A stretch of DNA of 29,139 nt from a virus: positions 1 to 29,139 of the IMG/VR virus record IMGVR_UViG_3300029309_000240; one strand, written 5' to 3'. The first letter of the stretch is position 1; every line of letters starts with the position of its first letter. Made by a program: the position numbers and the translations under genes. Of the stretch, positions 5,070 through 13,579 are shown one piece after another. Below the pieces are notes generated by a model. The model was not told where the DNA came from. It saw only the letters and a list, made by a program, of their open reading frames with translations, and did not search any database.

Positions 5070-5152
5070 CAACTATGGAAGAAAAAAAAGAAATTGAAAA
5101 AAACAGATTATCCTATCTCAAAAGAGCATGGATATTATTAGGGGGTAAATAA
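4994..5152 (+). CDS. Small basic protein nested over the lysozyme 3' end, unknown function
   Basis: This 52-residue frame starts at 4994 behind a GAGG at 4982-4985 with normal spacing. It overlaps the end of the lysozyme gene by 76 bases in another frame and ends in TAATG with the holin at 5152. The first half is very rich in Lys, Arg, Asn and Gln (NRKNAKKRKVKR). The second half is a charged helix with a short hydrophobic end (WILLGGK). An internal ATG at 5075 lacks a ribosome site, so the longer form is preferred. The tight coupling to the holin suggests that a real product is made, perhaps tuning lysis. No family is recognised. Confidence 0.5.
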   Translation: MVQSNNKQGKPHNRKNAKKRKVKRITTMEEKKEIEKNRLSYLKRAWILLGGK

Positions 5153-5568
5153 TGGTATTAGGAAAATTATTATCTGGAGGATTAGTTGATAGTGTTGGAA
5201 AAATAGTTGACGATCTGCATGTAAGTGAAGAAGAAAAACAACAAGCAAAAGCAAAACTTATTGAACTAGAAAATCAAGTTAAATTAAAACAAATGGATAT
5301 AAATTTAGCTGATGCAAAATCTACAGCTGGTGGTATTTCTGGAATGTTGCAAAGAAGTTGGCGACCTTTAATAGGCATGAGTTGCGCTCTAGCCATATTT
5401 TGGGAATTTGTATTGAGTAAATTTATTTTGTTTATTTGTGGATTGTTTCAATATGAAGTGGTAAACATACCAGAGTTAGATATGGGTACATTGATGCCCC
5501 TCGTTATGAGTCTTTTAGGCATGGGTGCATTACGCACTTTTGAAAAAACTAAAGGTATATCTAAGTAA
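5152..5568 (+). CDS. Holin of the three-transmembrane family (GTA_holin_3TM type)
   Basis: This protein of 138 residues has a charged N-terminal helix (EEEKQQAKAKL), then an 'INLADAKS' segment and a WRPLIGM motif that opens the first membrane helix. A second hydrophobic stretch covers about residues 85-98, and a third lies near 113-126 (LMPLVMSLLGMG), ending in RTFEKTKG. This order matches the PF11351 holin family known from phages and the Rhodobacter gene transfer agent, where it opens the inner membrane for endolysin release. A GGGGGT run just upstream can serve as a weak ribosome site, and translation is coupled to the preceding small gene by TAATG. Confidence 0.8.
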   Translation: MVLGKLLSGGLVDSVGKIVDDLHVSEEEKQQAKAKLIELENQVKLKQMDINLADAKSTAGGISGMLQRSWRPLIGMSCALAIFWEFVLSKFILFICGLFQYEVVNIPELDMGTLMPLVMSLLGMGALRTFEKTKGISK

Positions 5569-6316: not shown

Positions 6317-6387
6317 ACTAATCAACGGGTCTATATATCATCTAATCTAACGATATTACTACTTACCGATTAAGGAAGTTGATTAGT
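6317..6387. repeat. Inverted repeat spanning the convergent intergenic gap
   Basis: ACTAATCAAC at 6317-6326 is the exact reverse complement of GTTGATTAGT at 6378-6387, with 51 bases between. The right arm covers the stop codon of the minus-strand nuclease gene. The gap between the convergent operons (6250-6382) holds no reading frame worth calling. This repeat could be part of a two-sided transcription stop or a protein-binding site; the long spacing makes a simple hairpin less likely. Confidence 0.35.
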
Positions 6388-7192
6388 AACCCCATATCTC
6401 TTTTCTAGCTTTAAGTACAGTTTCTTCTTTCCAAATCCAGTTATCAGGATTAGGAATCAATGAATTTTTAACATCATCAGCAGAATCAACATTTTCAAGA
6501 TATTTACCCATTACTAAAACTATATGCTCGCATACTTTCATTGGCTTATGATAATCATCTAATTCAAGACTAAAGAATTCAGCACCTTTAGTTTTTGTAG
6601 GATTTTTAAGATACCATAACATTTGCCTTGCATTTGTCGCTCTTTGATAGATAGATTGTTGCATTGCGTGACTCATTGAGATTTGACTAGGCATAGTTTT
6701 AGATGTTTTCAAATCTATATAAAAATCTTCTTTTGTATTCTTATCTTCAAAATGAAAGTCAGTAAAACCTTTGAAAGGTATGCCTTTTATAAATACTTCA
6801 ACTTGTTTTTGATAATCAATTAAATCCCATTGAAAAGCATGCTCTTGAAATTTTTGAGCTCCTAGTTCTATCAATGGTGCTAAATTAGTTCTTTCATCAT
6901 CAACTTTAGGGTCAGTAATTCTAGAACAATTAGCATCATATTCAGATATTGCTTTTTCAGTAGCTTCAATAACAGTCATTCCGTTAAGAATCATATTTAA
7001 GCCAGATTCAACAGAACTACCTCTTTCAGCTGCAGCACTACTAGGAAATTGATAATCAAATATCCTACGAAGTGCCCACCTTTCCCTATAAAAAGCAAAC
7101 TCGTTTAAATGACTAAAAGATAAAGGCAATAAGCTTTTAACTATATTGCCTTCTGTATCTTTTTGATCAAATTTTTTAAAATGCTCAATCAT
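6383..7192 (-). CDS. PD-(D/E)XK superfamily exonuclease
   Basis: The protein has 269 residues. The core motifs are visible: an ERGSSVESG stretch near residues 56-64 (motif I Glu at 62), Asp at 145 in GFTDFHF, the paired Asp-x-Lys at 160-162 in YIDLKTSK, and a Gln/Tyr helix at about 178-182 (QQSIYQ). This is the arrangement of the PDDEXK_1 (Cas4/RecB-like) group of phage nucleases, which process DNA ends in recombination or degrade host DNA. It is the last gene of the leftward operon, which also codes a likely ssDNA-binding protein, so a recombination role is reasonable. The start overlaps the upstream stop as ATGA (7189-7192). Confidence 0.8.
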   Translation of the reverse strand: MIEHFKKFDQKDTEGNIVKSLLPLSFSHLNEFAFYRERWALRRIFDYQFPSSAAAERGSSVESGLNMILNGMTVIEATEKAISEYDANCSRITDPKVDDERTNLAPLIELGAQKFQEHAFQWDLIDYQKQVEVFIKGIPFKGFTDFHFEDKNTKEDFYIDLKTSKTMPSQISMSHAMQQSIYQRATNARQMLWYLKNPTKTKGAEFFSLELDDYHKPMKVCEHIVLVMGKYLENVDSADDVKNSLIPNPDNWIWKEETVLKARKEIWGY

Positions 7193-7843: not shown

Positions 7844-8200
7844 CTATAAGTTTTTGGCCAATTCCCTTTCGTTAACAACTTTTGTTCGTAAGTCGTTACG
7901 AAAAGCTTTGAAGGTTTCAAATCTAATTTTAGATTGATTCCTTGCCTTTAAGGTTTTTTCGTATCTATCAAAAAAATCCTTAAACTTGTTATCTGAATAA
8001 ATTTTTCCATTTAATTCAGTAATATTTTTGTATCCGCCATTTTTCGTAAAATAAAGCGTTAATTCTGCAATAATCATCTTTTCTTCTTTTTTCATTAGTT
8101 CAATTGCAGTATCATTATCAGCAAATTCTAATCCTAATTTTTCTTCTTGATATGAAAGCTTTGTAGGGTCAAAATCTAAAGTATATACGTCAGTTGCCAT
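7844..8200 (-). CDS. 118-residue conserved-looking early protein, unknown function
   Basis: I start at 8200, where GAGG lies nine bases before the ATG. The longer frame from 8230 and an ATG six bases upstream of 8200 have poorer spacing. The product has 118 residues, charged and helical. It has an FDPTKLSYQEEKLGLEFAD opening, a KKEEKMIIAELTLYF helix and a C-terminal VVNERELAKNL. No catalytic motif or signal is seen. It sits between the HNH nuclease gene, which it overlaps by 11 bases, and the HTH gene. I believe similar proteins accompany ssDNA-binding genes in marine phages, but no function is known. Confidence 0.5.
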   Translation of the reverse strand: MATDVYTLDFDPTKLSYQEEKLGLEFADNDTAIELMKKEEKMIIAELTLYFTKNGGYKNITELNGKIYSDNKFKDFFDRYEKTLKARNQSKIRFETFKAFRNDLRTKVVNERELAKNL

Positions 8201-8489
8201 TTTCATTGTCCTCAAATTCTTTATTGTCAATTTTTTCTTGTAATCTAATTCGCCATTCTTCGTTTATGTCTTTATGCTGATGTGCAATATTATGACAAGA
8301 TCTGCAAACAGGAAAAAGATTATCAATCCTATTGAGTCTATTTTTACTTACTCCGCCCATGCCTTTATTTGTTAGATGATGAATATCGACAGCGGGTTTT
8401 TGATAACAACCCCAACACATGGGGGTATCGTACTCAGAATACCCCCAATAGTTCCTAAAGAGTTTTTTATAATCCTTTAAGGTTTTCAT
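8190..8489 (-). CDS. HNH endonuclease
   Basis: This protein of 99 residues has a complete HNH zinc-supported site: CWGC at 25-28, DIHHL at 35-39 with the catalytic His pair, Asn at 57 (IDNL), then CRSCH at 62-66 and a further His at 70. HNH enzymes nick or cut DNA. In phages they act as homing nucleases, packaging cofactors or host-DNA nucleases. This one lies in the early operon, far from the terminase genes, so a packaging role is less likely. It overlaps the upstream gene by 23 bases. The first third of the gene contains a perfect 9-bp inverted repeat. Confidence 0.85.
   Translation of the reverse strand: MKTLKDYKKLFRNYWGYSEYDTPMCWGCYQKPAVDIHHLTNKGMGGVSKNRLNRIDNLFPVCRSCHNIAHQHKDINEEWRIRLQEKIDNKEFEDNENGN
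8420..8447. repeat. Perfect 9-bp inverted repeat inside the HNH gene
   Basis: TGGGGGTAT at 8420-8428 is repeated in reverse complement as ATACCCCCA at 8439-8447, around a 10-base loop. The G5/C5 core stands out in A+T-rich DNA. It lies about 40-70 bases inside the HNH gene and codes the residues around the first CWGC. It may fold in the mRNA and tune expression, or act as a target site. Confidence 0.55.
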
Positions 8490-9981: not shown

Positions 9982-10150
9982 TTTTGACCTCCTTATTATT
10001 ATTAATTATTTTGCTAGACATAACTTGTTTAGCATTATTATCAAAGACAGCACTACTACCATCTAAGAATACGATTTTAAAGTAGTGAGTGACCTTACCA
10101 TTTTCGATAAGGTCAACTCTTTTAGAAGATTTGAAAGGTCTAGGAATCAT
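9968..10150 (-). CDS. 60-residue hypothetical protein
   Basis: This small, basic to neutral protein has a beta-prone centre (VTHYFKIVFLDGSSAVFD) and an Asn/Lys-rich tail. The tail is read through the AAT-repeat leader and ribosome site of the next gene, so its last residues (NNNKEV) are a by-product of that leader. It overlaps the upstream gene by four bases (ATGA). No family is recognised. Confidence 0.4.
   Translation of the reverse strand: MIPRPFKSSKRVDLIENGKVTHYFKIVFLDGSSAVFDNNAKQVMSSKIINNNKEVKNDSN
9982..10009 (-). promoter_or_regulatory. Repeated AAT leader with AAGGAGGTC ribosome site
   Basis: On the minus strand, AATAATAAT is followed by AAGGAGGTC and then the ATG at 9981. This is one of three matching leaders in the operon and fixes the start of the DUF3768 gene. 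Confidence 0.55.
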
Positions 10151-10422
10151 ATTTGAACCTTTTCAATTTTAACTAATTGTGAAATGTGAAAAACGGAAAA
10201 CTTTCTGCCTGATTGTTTTTCTTCAAGTTTACCATTTGGTTTTTCAACTAAATCAATCATTGGTCTGATTAATTTAGCAATAGCTTTAGTACCTTTAGGA
10301 ACTGAATAACCATTAGTGATTGCTTGATTGAAAGTACAAAAGCCACCTGTTCTTCCTGTAGCTTCTAATATTTCAATATTCTTTCCTTGATACTCATTAC
10401 CTGTAAAATAATTATAATACAT
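10147..10422 (-). CDS. ArdC N-terminal-domain-like protein, putative anti-restriction or ssDNA-binding
   Basis: The start at 10422 is chosen because AAGGAGGTCG lies directly upstream. The longer frame from 10464 would translate the AAT repeat as an Asn run. The 91-residue product has the sequence order of the ArdC N-terminal domain (PF08401): Tyr and YQGKN near the start, a 'GGFCTFNQAITNGY.VPKGTKA' core (ArdC proteins read W.TFKQ...LG..V.KGEK), and a terminal FSVFHISQ strand. ArdC proteins bind ssDNA and protect incoming DNA from restriction. The C-terminal metallopeptidase part of full ArdC is missing. As the first gene of the leftward operon it would be made earliest, which suits an anti-restriction role. 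Confidence 0.65.
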   Translation of the reverse strand: MYYNYFTGNEYQGKNIEILEATGRTGGFCTFNQAITNGYSVPKGTKAIAKLIRPMIDLVEKPNGKLEEKQSGRKFSVFHISQLVKIEKVQI

Positions 10423-10462
10423 ATCGACCTCCTTTGGTTTATTATTATTATTATTATTAATC
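10423..10462 (-). promoter_or_regulatory. Repeated AAT leader with AAGGAGGTCG ribosome site
   Basis: On the minus strand, a run of about seven AAT triplets (10441-10460) precedes AAACC and then AAGGAGGTCG, followed by the ATG at 10422. It is the longest of the three such leaders and sits at the front of the leftward operon. Confidence 0.55.
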
Positions 10463-10494
10463 ATTATCTAATACCTAAAGATTTTTCTAGGTTA

Positions 10495-12071: not shown

Positions 12072-12550
12072 ATATACAAGAAATAGAAATAGATAAAATA
12101 ATACCTTATCACAATAACCCTAGAAAAAATTTAAATGTTGATAAAGTTGCAAGTTCTATTACTGAATTTGGTTTTCAACAGCCAATAGTCGTAGATAAAA
12201 ATTATGTAGTGATTGTTGGTCATACAAGATTACAAGCAGCAAAAAAATTAAATTATCAAAAAGTGCCTGTATTTATTGCTAATTTATCAGAAAATAAAGC
12301 AAAAGCTTATAGAATTGCAGATAATAGACTTAACGAAGATTCTAGCTGGGATTATGATTTTTTAAATATTGAAATGAATATTCTAAATGAAGGTAATTAT
12401 GATTTATCACAACTTGGTTTTAATGATGAAGAATTAAAAAATTTACTTGCAAATCAAGGCGATTTTCTACCTACAGATATTGACGATCAATCAGATATTG
12501 ATGAAGCTTCTGAAAGATGCGAGACTTGTGGACAAACATTACCAAAATAA
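12068..12550 (+). CDS. ParB-like nuclease-domain protein
   Basis: The 160-residue protein starts with the ParB/Srx-type domain (PF02195): a PYHNNPRKN segment at 14-21, IVVDKNYVVIVGHTRLQAAKKL at about 40-61 including the GHTR motif, and ADNRLNE at 84-90. A short helical region and a tail with CETCG (151-155), which looks like half a zinc ribbon, follow. In phages this domain is usually fused to, or coded beside, a DNA-modifying enzyme. Here the next gene is Mom-like, so the two probably cooperate, with this protein perhaps guiding or regulating modification. No partner ParA or centromere-like repeats are seen, so plasmid-style partition is not supported. It overlaps the previous stop as ATGA. 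Confidence 0.8.
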   Translation: MNIQEIEIDKIIPYHNNPRKNLNVDKVASSITEFGFQQPIVVDKNYVVIVGHTRLQAAKKLNYQKVPVFIANLSENKAKAYRIADNRLNEDSSWDYDFLNIEMNILNEGNYDLSQLGFNDEELKNLLANQGDFLPTDIDDQSDIDEASERCETCGQTLPK

Positions 12551-13130
12551 AAGTCTATATATAGATTATTGTAGTCATAAAGTTGCTGTCTATTCTGTTC
12601 TTCGTTGGCATTATTCTAGGCGAATGCCGAAATCAAAATTAGTAAGATTCGGAGTATGGGAGTATGGAAAATTTAAAGGTGCTATAATTTATGGTTTAGG
12701 AGCTAATCCAAAATCTGGCGCTTTTCTTGGCATTTCAAACTTTGAATGTCCTGAATTAGTAAGAGTAGCATTAGATAATCACGATAATGCAGTTTCAAAA
12801 ATTGTTAGCTTTACTTTAAAGAAAATGAAAAAAGATTTTCCTAATATCAAAGCAATCGTTTCGTATGCTGACCCAGAAAAAAATCATAAAGGTGGAATAT
12901 ATCAAGCGATGAACTGGACATATATTGGCAAAACATCATCATCAAAAATTTATATTGAAAATGGAAAAGAAATACATTCAAAGACAATTTCTGACAGAAT
13001 AAGATTCAAAAAATTAGATAAAAATCATAATTTAGAATACAAAGTTGTAAAAGGTAAATACAAATATGTTTACTTGTTTGACAAATCATTTGCTGATAAG
13101 TTAAATAAATTAAAAAAACCTTATCCTTAA
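12501..13130 (+). CDS. Mom-like DNA-modification protein (GNAT-type fold)
   Basis: From the ATG at 12501 the product has 209 residues and overlaps the ParB-like gene by 50 bases. A GTG at 12528 is an alternative start; none has a good ribosome site. Landmarks follow the Mom family of phage Mu: IDYCSHKVA and a WHYSRRMP segment near 36-43, FGVWE and GAIIYGLGA at 50-68, PELVRVALDN at 84-93, VSYADPEKNHKGGIYQA at 120-136 and NWTYIGK. Mom converts adenine in DNA to N6-(carbamoylmethyl)adenine and thereby blocks many restriction enzymes. Whether this protein is active, and which sites it marks, cannot be told. A plain N-acetyltransferase is the main alternative. Confidence 0.75.
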   Translation: MKLLKDARLVDKHYQNKSLYIDYCSHKVAVYSVLRWHYSRRMPKSKLVRFGVWEYGKFKGAIIYGLGANPKSGAFLGISNFECPELVRVALDNHDNAVSKIVSFTLKKMKKDFPNIKAIVSYADPEKNHKGGIYQAMNWTYIGKTSSSKIYIENGKEIHSKTISDRIRFKKLDKNHNLEYKVVKGKYKYVYLFDKSFADKLNKLKKPYP

Positions 13131-13131
13131 T

Positions 13132-13201
13132 GCGGTAGCTAGAGCATAGTGCAATAGTACCATTATTGTAAAGGCGGTGCGACTCCGACCCTACCGCTCC
13201 A
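13132..13201 (+). tRNA. tRNA-Gly-like element without a recognisable D-arm
   Basis: A 7-bp acceptor stem (GCGGTAG at 13132-13138, CTACCGC at 13191-13197) is followed by U73 and an encoded CCA (13198-13201). A perfect 5-bp anticodon stem (CAATA and TATTG, 13152-13168) closes a 7-base loop GTACCAT with U33 and anticodon ACC. A T-arm (13173-13189) has four of five pairs and a TGCGACT loop. Only 13 bases separate the acceptor and anticodon stems, too few for a D-arm, though TAGCT and AGAGCA look like its remnants. The Gly identity features G1-C72, C2-G71, U73 and C35-C36 are all present. At 70 bases it is short. It may be a decayed tRNA, a mimic or an attachment-site relic. Confidence 0.5.
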
Positions 13202-13273: not shown

Positions 13274-13579
13274 ATGGCTAGACCAAAAAAATATAAAATA
13301 GATACTGAACAAGTAAAAAAATTAGCACAATTTGGATGTACAAATAAAGAAATCGGAGAGTTTTTCGGTTGTTCTGCAGATCTTATAGAAAAGAGTTATT
13401 CGGAATTTCTGATAAAAGGAAGAGCAAACGGAAAAATAAGACTTAGACAATTACAATGGTCATCAGCAGAAAAAGGGAATGTGGCTATGTTAATATTTCT
13501 TGGTAAAAATCTTTTAGGACAACAAGATAAATTAGAAGAAAATCAACTAGAAACTCCTTTACCTTGGTCAAATGATTAA
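13274..13579 (+). CDS. Terminase small subunit
   Basis: The 101-residue protein has the small-terminase design: a basic RPKKYKID opening, a helix-turn-helix near residues 13-38 (VKKLAQFGCTNKEIGEFFGCS) typical of DNA-recognising TerS proteins, then a helical oligomerisation part with RLRQLQWSSAEKGNVAMLIFLGKN and a short acidic-Pro tail. It binds the packaging start site and hands DNA to the large subunit, whose ATG is one base from this stop. Gene order and motif both support the call. The tRNA-like element directly upstream could lie close to the packaging site. Confidence 0.85.
   Translation: MARPKKYKIDTEQVKKLAQFGCTNKEIGEFFGCSADLIEKSYSEFLIKGRANGKIRLRQLQWSSAEKGNVAMLIFLGKNLLGQQDKLEENQLETPLPWSND

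Follow-up and report, generated by a model that had tools for sequence, protein, structure and literature searches.

What role does a tRNA-Gly-like RNA play in a phage genome, and to which of its neighbors does it belong? The question is raised by positions 13132-13201 of IMG/VR virus record IMGVR_UViG_3300029309_000240, which was analyzed over a stretch of 29,139 nucleotides, herein referred to as the window. An earlier reading of this DNA, made from the sequence only, had described here a tRNA-Gly-like RNA without a D-arm, with an encoded CCA, just before the terminase genes.

The RNA element and its genomic neighborhood

The coordinates 13132-13201 (plus strand) were exact on re-reading of the letters, and, judging from the comparisons of related sequences presented below, the tRNA-Gly-like RNA is real and well beyond chance. 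The element reads GCGGTAG CTAGAGCATAG TG CAATA GTACCAT TATTG TAAA GGCGG TGCGACT CCGACC CTACCGC T CCA. Its acceptor stem consists of seven perfect pairs between GCGGTAG (13132-13138), in which G1, C2, and G3 belong to the glycine identity pairs, and CTACCGC (13191-13197); the assignment of this stem is based on the letters, covariation, and identity conservation. The 3' strand of the stem, together with the discriminator U73 (13198) and the encoded CCA (13199-13201), occupies positions 13191-13201. The anticodon arm CAATA-GTACCAT-TATTG (13152-13168) has a perfect 5-bp stem, CAATA/TATTG, and the loop GUACCAU with U33 and the anticodon ACC (13159-13161), C35 and C36 being located at 13160-13161. 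All these features had been reported by the sequence-only reading and were confirmed in the letters.

The T-arm GGCGG-TGCGACT-CCGACC (13173-13190) had been called nearly complete. It is present and is better than this description, forming five perfect pairs (GGCGG / CCG-A-CC) once the bulged A at 13188 is allowed. Its loop, UGCGACU, contains G55 in place of U55. The region of the D-arm is indeed only 13 bases long, as had been noted, but CTA and TAG can pair there as a 3-bp arm against the acceptor stem, forming the miniature D-arm CTA-GAGCA-TAG (13139-13149). Pairs of this kind were found at the same offset in relatives (CTA/TAG, CTT/AAG, CTC/GAG, and CCT/AGG), and the description of the window RNA as wholly D-armless was therefore dropped.

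The element was missed by the standard tools: ARAGORN found no genes in the window, and Rfam at the gathering score found no matches there. The full cloverleaf on which tRNA finders rely (RF00005) is lacking in the window RNA and present in some relatives; those with a full D-arm are called as tRNA-Gly by ARAGORN or as RF00005 by Rfam. A relaxed-threshold Rfam search yielded the plant-virus tRNA-like structure RF00233, which was rejected (17.3 bits against a gathering score of 40). Single-sequence folding of the window element was mildly better than that of shuffled sequences (z = -1.95). This result is unimpressive, and the case for the RNA thus rests on comparison and covariation.

The element starts one base past the stop codon of a mom-like ORF (12447-13130, plus strand; PF25680 / phrog_1384), the putative enzymatic partner of the RNA. 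The listed start of this ORF is TTG at 12447, and the true start may be located further in. The encoded protein, herein the window Mom, matched phrog_1384 with an E-value of 1e-50 and PF25680 with 151 bits (curated cut-off, 27.1). Its fold model (pLDDT 93) has Mom of phage Mu (PDB 8bv8) as the best structural match in Foldseek. Ser117 of the window Mom aligns with Ser124 of the Mu/D108 Mom, and the crystal entry for the Ser124 Ala mutant of Mu Mom is titled as inactive. The profile score above the cut-off, the predicted GNAT fold, and the catalytic Ser assign this protein, as judged from sequence and model, to the Mom family.

Directly upstream of mom lies a ParB-like gene (phrog_620, PF02195; 12068-12550, plus strand). 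Of 10 diverse loci, 9 have a gene of this family on the upstream side of mom, this gene being a recurrent third member of the module. Downstream of the element are genes for the terminase small subunit (13274-13579, plus strand), a neighbor outside the proposed function, and for the terminase large subunit (TerL), portal, and capsid. TerL of the window phage has 55-56% identity to those of the pelagiphages HTVC112P, HTVC202P, and HTVC026P, and this kinship suggests SAR11 as the likely host.

Some other genes of the window were also annotated. A gene in the leftward cluster of small genes (10147-10464, minus strand) weakly matched the anti-restriction family phrog_7245 (E 8e-7). The gene at 6383-7192 (minus strand) matched phrog_10230 and, weakly, phrog_1706, labelled as CRISPR/Cas system associated (E 5e-5); a Pfam search with this gene gave no match. 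A holin of the gene-transfer-agent type (PF11351) was found at 5152-5568.

Linkage of the RNA to mom

Moms related to that of the window were gathered from viral contigs, bacterial genomes, and sequenced phages. All counts given here refer to distinct sequences, not to independent events, and several loci are near copies. By a strict criterion, requiring the acceptor stem and T-arm and including the identity bases in the search condition, the element adjoins 80 of the 131 Mom loci of the first set. Away from these loci, the criterion gave 4 matches in 1.34 Mb, which corresponds to an expectation of 0.0009 per locus. By a relaxed reading, the element was found at 92 of the same 131 loci. In total, it is present at 193 of the 317 loci gathered, a set to which some loci were added through the T-arm pattern of the element itself.

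The linkage was also observed in the reverse direction, by scanning viral contigs for the T-arm pattern. Complete elements made up 71 of the 80 matches listed; among these, 68 of 71 have a Mom ORF in the locus, and in 54 of these 68 the RNA is encoded on the mom strand, at the 3' end of the gene. Two of the three complete elements with no Mom found are located at contig ends; the third one, L165, is not. In L165, a 12.7-kb contig, the element lies at about 8190-8264 (minus strand) with no Mom found nearby, and the ORF just upstream of it looks lysozyme-like.

The position of the RNA relative to mom varies between lineages. In another lineage, comprising 18 loci in all (L172, L178, L183, L190, L206, and L213 among them), the RNA immediately precedes mom. 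The linkage thus outlives a change of gene order. In a distant branch of Moms, including those of Pseudanabaena phage Pan3, Verrucomicrobiota, and several contigs, the RNA is located inside the 3' end of mom; in the loci L128, L129, L139, L260, L261, and L265 of this branch, one stretch is both mom coding sequence and RNA. Pan3 is not the only cultured carrier of the element. In Sonny and Sicarius2, two phages of Arthrobacter, for example, the RNA shares sequence with the 3' end of mom, and in Salinibacter phage B2_17 it is annotated as tRNA-Gly. The tRNA-Gly of Microbacterium phage Appa is of a more ordinary kind and is encoded on the opposite strand, about 33 bases away.

On the Mom tree, presence of the RNA requires 6 changes, against 23.7 with shuffled labels. 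No adjacent element was found at the Moms of the Mu/D108 (D108 tested), Listeria, Proteus, ICP1, and Enterococcus phiSHEF2 types, nor at those of Yersinia, Paenibacillus, and several Actinobacteria prophages. A scan of 429 kb with a covariance model of the element gave 40 matches, all of them copies known from these loci. A whole-genome check with the same model took in 9 bacterial genomes and 4 phage records; in the 9 bacterial genomes, of about 58 Mb, only two matches were found, both at Mom.

The location just before the terminase genes, reported by the sequence-only reading, is true for the window but incidental, the relevant gene being mom on the upstream side. In a control made with close TerL relatives whose upstream sequence was long enough, the element was found in none of the 55 without Mom, in both of the 2 with a Mom like that of the window, and in none of the 3 with a more distant Mom. 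For HTVC112P, HTVC202P, HTVC026P, and phage DSL-LC06, there is neither a Mom annotation nor an element near TerL. The genes downstream of the element also differ between loci, including several families of terminase small subunits and other, unrelated genes. Membership of the element in the terminase region was rejected on the basis of the TerL control; by these genomic comparisons, the RNA tracks Mom, not the terminase.

Selection on fold and glycine identity

Matches to the covariance model were aligned; each of the 480 cells of this alignment was paired (100%), and 103 cells were changed on both sides, against 23 in shuffled alignments and at most 12 in slid controls. The model was built without the anticodon stem, since this stem was misplaced by MAFFT. 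In the acceptor stem, each of the four Watson-Crick types occurs at pairs 4-7, drift being compensated. Compensatory changes in relatives had been named by the sequence-only reading as the check on its proposal of a tRNA-Gly mimic under selection. The stems are kept through many such changes, and the proposal is upheld.

The bacterial glycine identity set consists of U73, G1-C72, C2-G71, G3-C70, C35, and C36, base 34 not being counted (PMC9976931). The window RNA has all of these. Their retention, which had been seen in this one sequence, extends across the family: a scan with no condition on bases 1, 2, and 71-73 returned 134 distinct matches, with G1-C72 in 134, C2-G71 in 133, G3-C70 in 129, and U73 in 132. 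The bases C35C36 were found in 87 of 90 anticodon arms picked by pairing alone. A clear CC anticodon loop is lacking in a few elements, among them L221 and the two elements L012 and L045, which have GCC without a regular stem. L221, which is closely related to the window element, no longer has the ACC loop (AATAC-TTC-GTATT) and retains the acceptor stem and T-arm. The oddity of the ACC anticodon, also pointed out earlier, finds support in the literature, tRNA-Gly-ACC being reported as missing from all organisms (PMC8007984). As far as can be judged from sequence conservation, glycine identity is under selection in this RNA family.

Features required for decoding follow another pattern. Position 33 is U in 46 of 87 anticodon arms (53%) and another base in 41; at position 34, A or U predominates. 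The D-arm is tiny or absent in many elements. An uninterrupted T-stem combined with U33 is lacking in the window RNA, which has U33 and the bulged A in the T-stem. A bulged A between pairs 50-64 and 51-63 was found in 45 of the 58 elements fetched through Mom, and G55 is common in the T-loops of the family; the frequencies of both features are inflated in the set of all loci, which was partly fetched by a pattern containing both. The region of the T-stem around the bulge site is where EF-Tu contacts tRNA. In particular, the 51-63 pair is given as an EF-Tu contact in a reference cited in PMC4052509. By these counts, decoding features are relaxed while glycine identity is kept.

Proposed role of the RNA and comparison with known systems

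The base formed by Mom is purine-6-yl glycinamide, on adenine (Swinton, 1983, as cited in PMC3874153), and the donor has been stated as an acyl-CoA such as glycyl-CoA, which is presumed (PMC7824862, a review on jumbo phages). In the open literature, no paper demonstrating the glycine donor of Mom and none linking Mom to tRNA was found; preprints and most subscription journals lie outside this scope, and priority is thus not proven. Other enzymes with the GNAT fold do take glycine from Gly-tRNA, namely DhpK and Orf11 (PMC12945691) and FemXAB (PMC4052509), and the toxin TacT, which acetylates Gly-tRNA, reads U73 and G71 (PMC9976931).

The RNA is probably a dedicated, non-translational glycine carrier that is charged by the host glycyl-tRNA synthetase (GlyRS) and serves Mom as the glycine donor for DNA modification. 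The sequence-only reading had considered a generic tRNA mimic or a substrate of processing enzymes; it had missed the adjoining Mom gene, which points to a glycine carrier instead. Transcription together with mom would be followed by tRNA-like trimming of the RNA and by its charging with glycine, the host GlyRS reading the retained recognition bases. Several EF-Tu-binding and decoding features are absent, so the charged RNA would be kept from protein synthesis. Mom, as a GNAT-fold transferase, would then transfer the glycyl group to adenine of the phage DNA, on the N6 side, and the resulting glycinamide-adenine would protect this DNA from restriction enzymes. With a glycyl ester as the donor, the first product would be N6-glycyl-adenine, and the amino group of glycine would have to attack C6 in a rearrangement leading to the reported glycinamide isomer. 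Direct glycyl transfer yields an isomer of the reported base, and the extra step thus required counts against the carrier model. The many Moms without the RNA (Mu-type, Listeria, ICP1-type, Yersinia, Paenibacillus, and Actinobacteria prophage) also stand against it, as do the few elements lacking a clear CC anticodon loop and the three complete elements with no Mom found. Moms without the RNA, for example those of Mu and of the Yersinia and Paenibacillus prophages, would draw on host Gly-tRNA-Gly. We lean slightly towards the broader view that Moms in general, that of Mu included, take glycine from glycyl-tRNA, the phages of one large branch bringing their own carrier RNA and the others drawing on host Gly-tRNA.

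The tight linkage to mom on either side would also fit an RNA cofactor or regulator of Mom, such as a brake on activity or expression or a tRNA-shaped scaffold, for which glycine is not needed; mom of Mu is known to be under RNA-level control through Com (PMC6483171). Such a role is unlikely, however, having no need for G1-C72, C2-G71, U73, and C35C36 to stay fixed while other stem positions drift. The same retention of glycine identity, without the decoding features, makes it quite unlikely that the element is an ordinary translation tRNA-Gly, decaying or oddly shaped, that decodes GGN codons of the phage. A complete D-arm, U33, and a UCC or CCC anticodon do occur in some members, for which ARAGORN reports a tRNA-Gly or Rfam a tRNA, but 41 of 87 arms have a base other than U at position 33, the T-stem is usually bulged, the D-arm is tiny or absent in many elements, and the RNA goes with Mom and is absent from TerL relatives without it.

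Resistant tRNA copies are a known strategy of phages against host anticodon nucleases. The RNA might likewise replace or protect a host Gly-tRNA pool cut by such nucleases, or drained or inactivated by Mom, and GNAT toxins such as TacT do act on Gly-tRNA (PMC9976931). A substitute working in translation should nevertheless retain U33 and an intact T-stem, which many elements do not, and the tie is to Mom rather than to varied defence genes; pool replacement is accordingly highly unlikely. The relic of an attachment site was another suggestion of the sequence-only reading. Such a site, whether functional or a relic, would stem from a tRNA-Gly gene of the host, and tRNA genes are indeed often used as targets by integrases. 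This origin is extremely improbable: decay is not seen, both halves of the fold being kept by compensatory changes, and the copies adjoin mom, not an integrase, with none found among the annotated subset of window ORFs.

We know of no DNA modification that depends on aminoacyl-tRNA, and the carrier model, if true, would to our knowledge provide the first one. The Mom base has been known since 1983 with its donor only presumed in the open literature covered here, and an RNA tied to mom offers a concrete, testable answer. The elements also define a family of phage RNAs mostly missed by tRNA finders. They are, moreover, natural variants of tRNA-Gly that have been released from decoding while being held for glycine identity, and as a series they could serve as a probe of what GlyRS and EF-Tu need.

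Among known systems, a close likeness is to the non-proteinogenic tRNA-Gly of Staphylococcus aureus, which is charged by GlyRS for FemXAB and kept from translation by weak EF-Tu binding and altered D- and T-loops (PMC4052509; PMC8007984). Charging by GlyRS, weak EF-Tu binding, and use by a GNAT-fold transferase are likewise proposed for the phage RNA; its sequence features are consistent with the first two, and it is genetically linked to a GNAT enzyme, Mom, whose dependence on the RNA is putative. The staphylococcal RNAs have chromosomal genes and a near-normal cloverleaf and serve cell-wall bridges; unlike them, the RNA described here is phage-encoded, lies beside the enzyme gene, often has a 3-bp D-arm and a bulge in the T-stem, and has DNA as the presumed acceptor. 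FemX, DhpK, Orf11, VlmA, and PacB (PMC12945691) share the GNAT fold and take the amino acid from aminoacyl-tRNA, which is Gly-tRNA for DhpK and Orf11. By a stricter reading, the system in the window could be classed with the FemX kind. The five enzymes named have double GNAT domains and act on small molecules or peptides, whereas Mom has a single GNAT domain and acts on DNA, and FemX was absent from the best 50 Foldseek matches of the window Mom model.

Mom of phage Mu (PDB 8bv8) shares with the window Mom the family and the position of the catalytic Ser; mom of the Mu type (D108 tested) differs from that of the window in having no adjacent tRNA-like element. The plant-virus structures of RF00233 are tRNA mimics like the window RNA, but they form the 3' ends of RNA genomes and have a pseudoknotted acceptor, whereas the window RNA is the product of a small RNA gene in a phage with a DNA genome. 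Canonical bacterial tRNA-Gly (RF00005) shares with the family the acceptor stem, U73, CCA, and C35C36, the family differing in the reduced D-arm, bulged T-stem, G55, and variable position 33. It is the probable ancestor of these RNAs.
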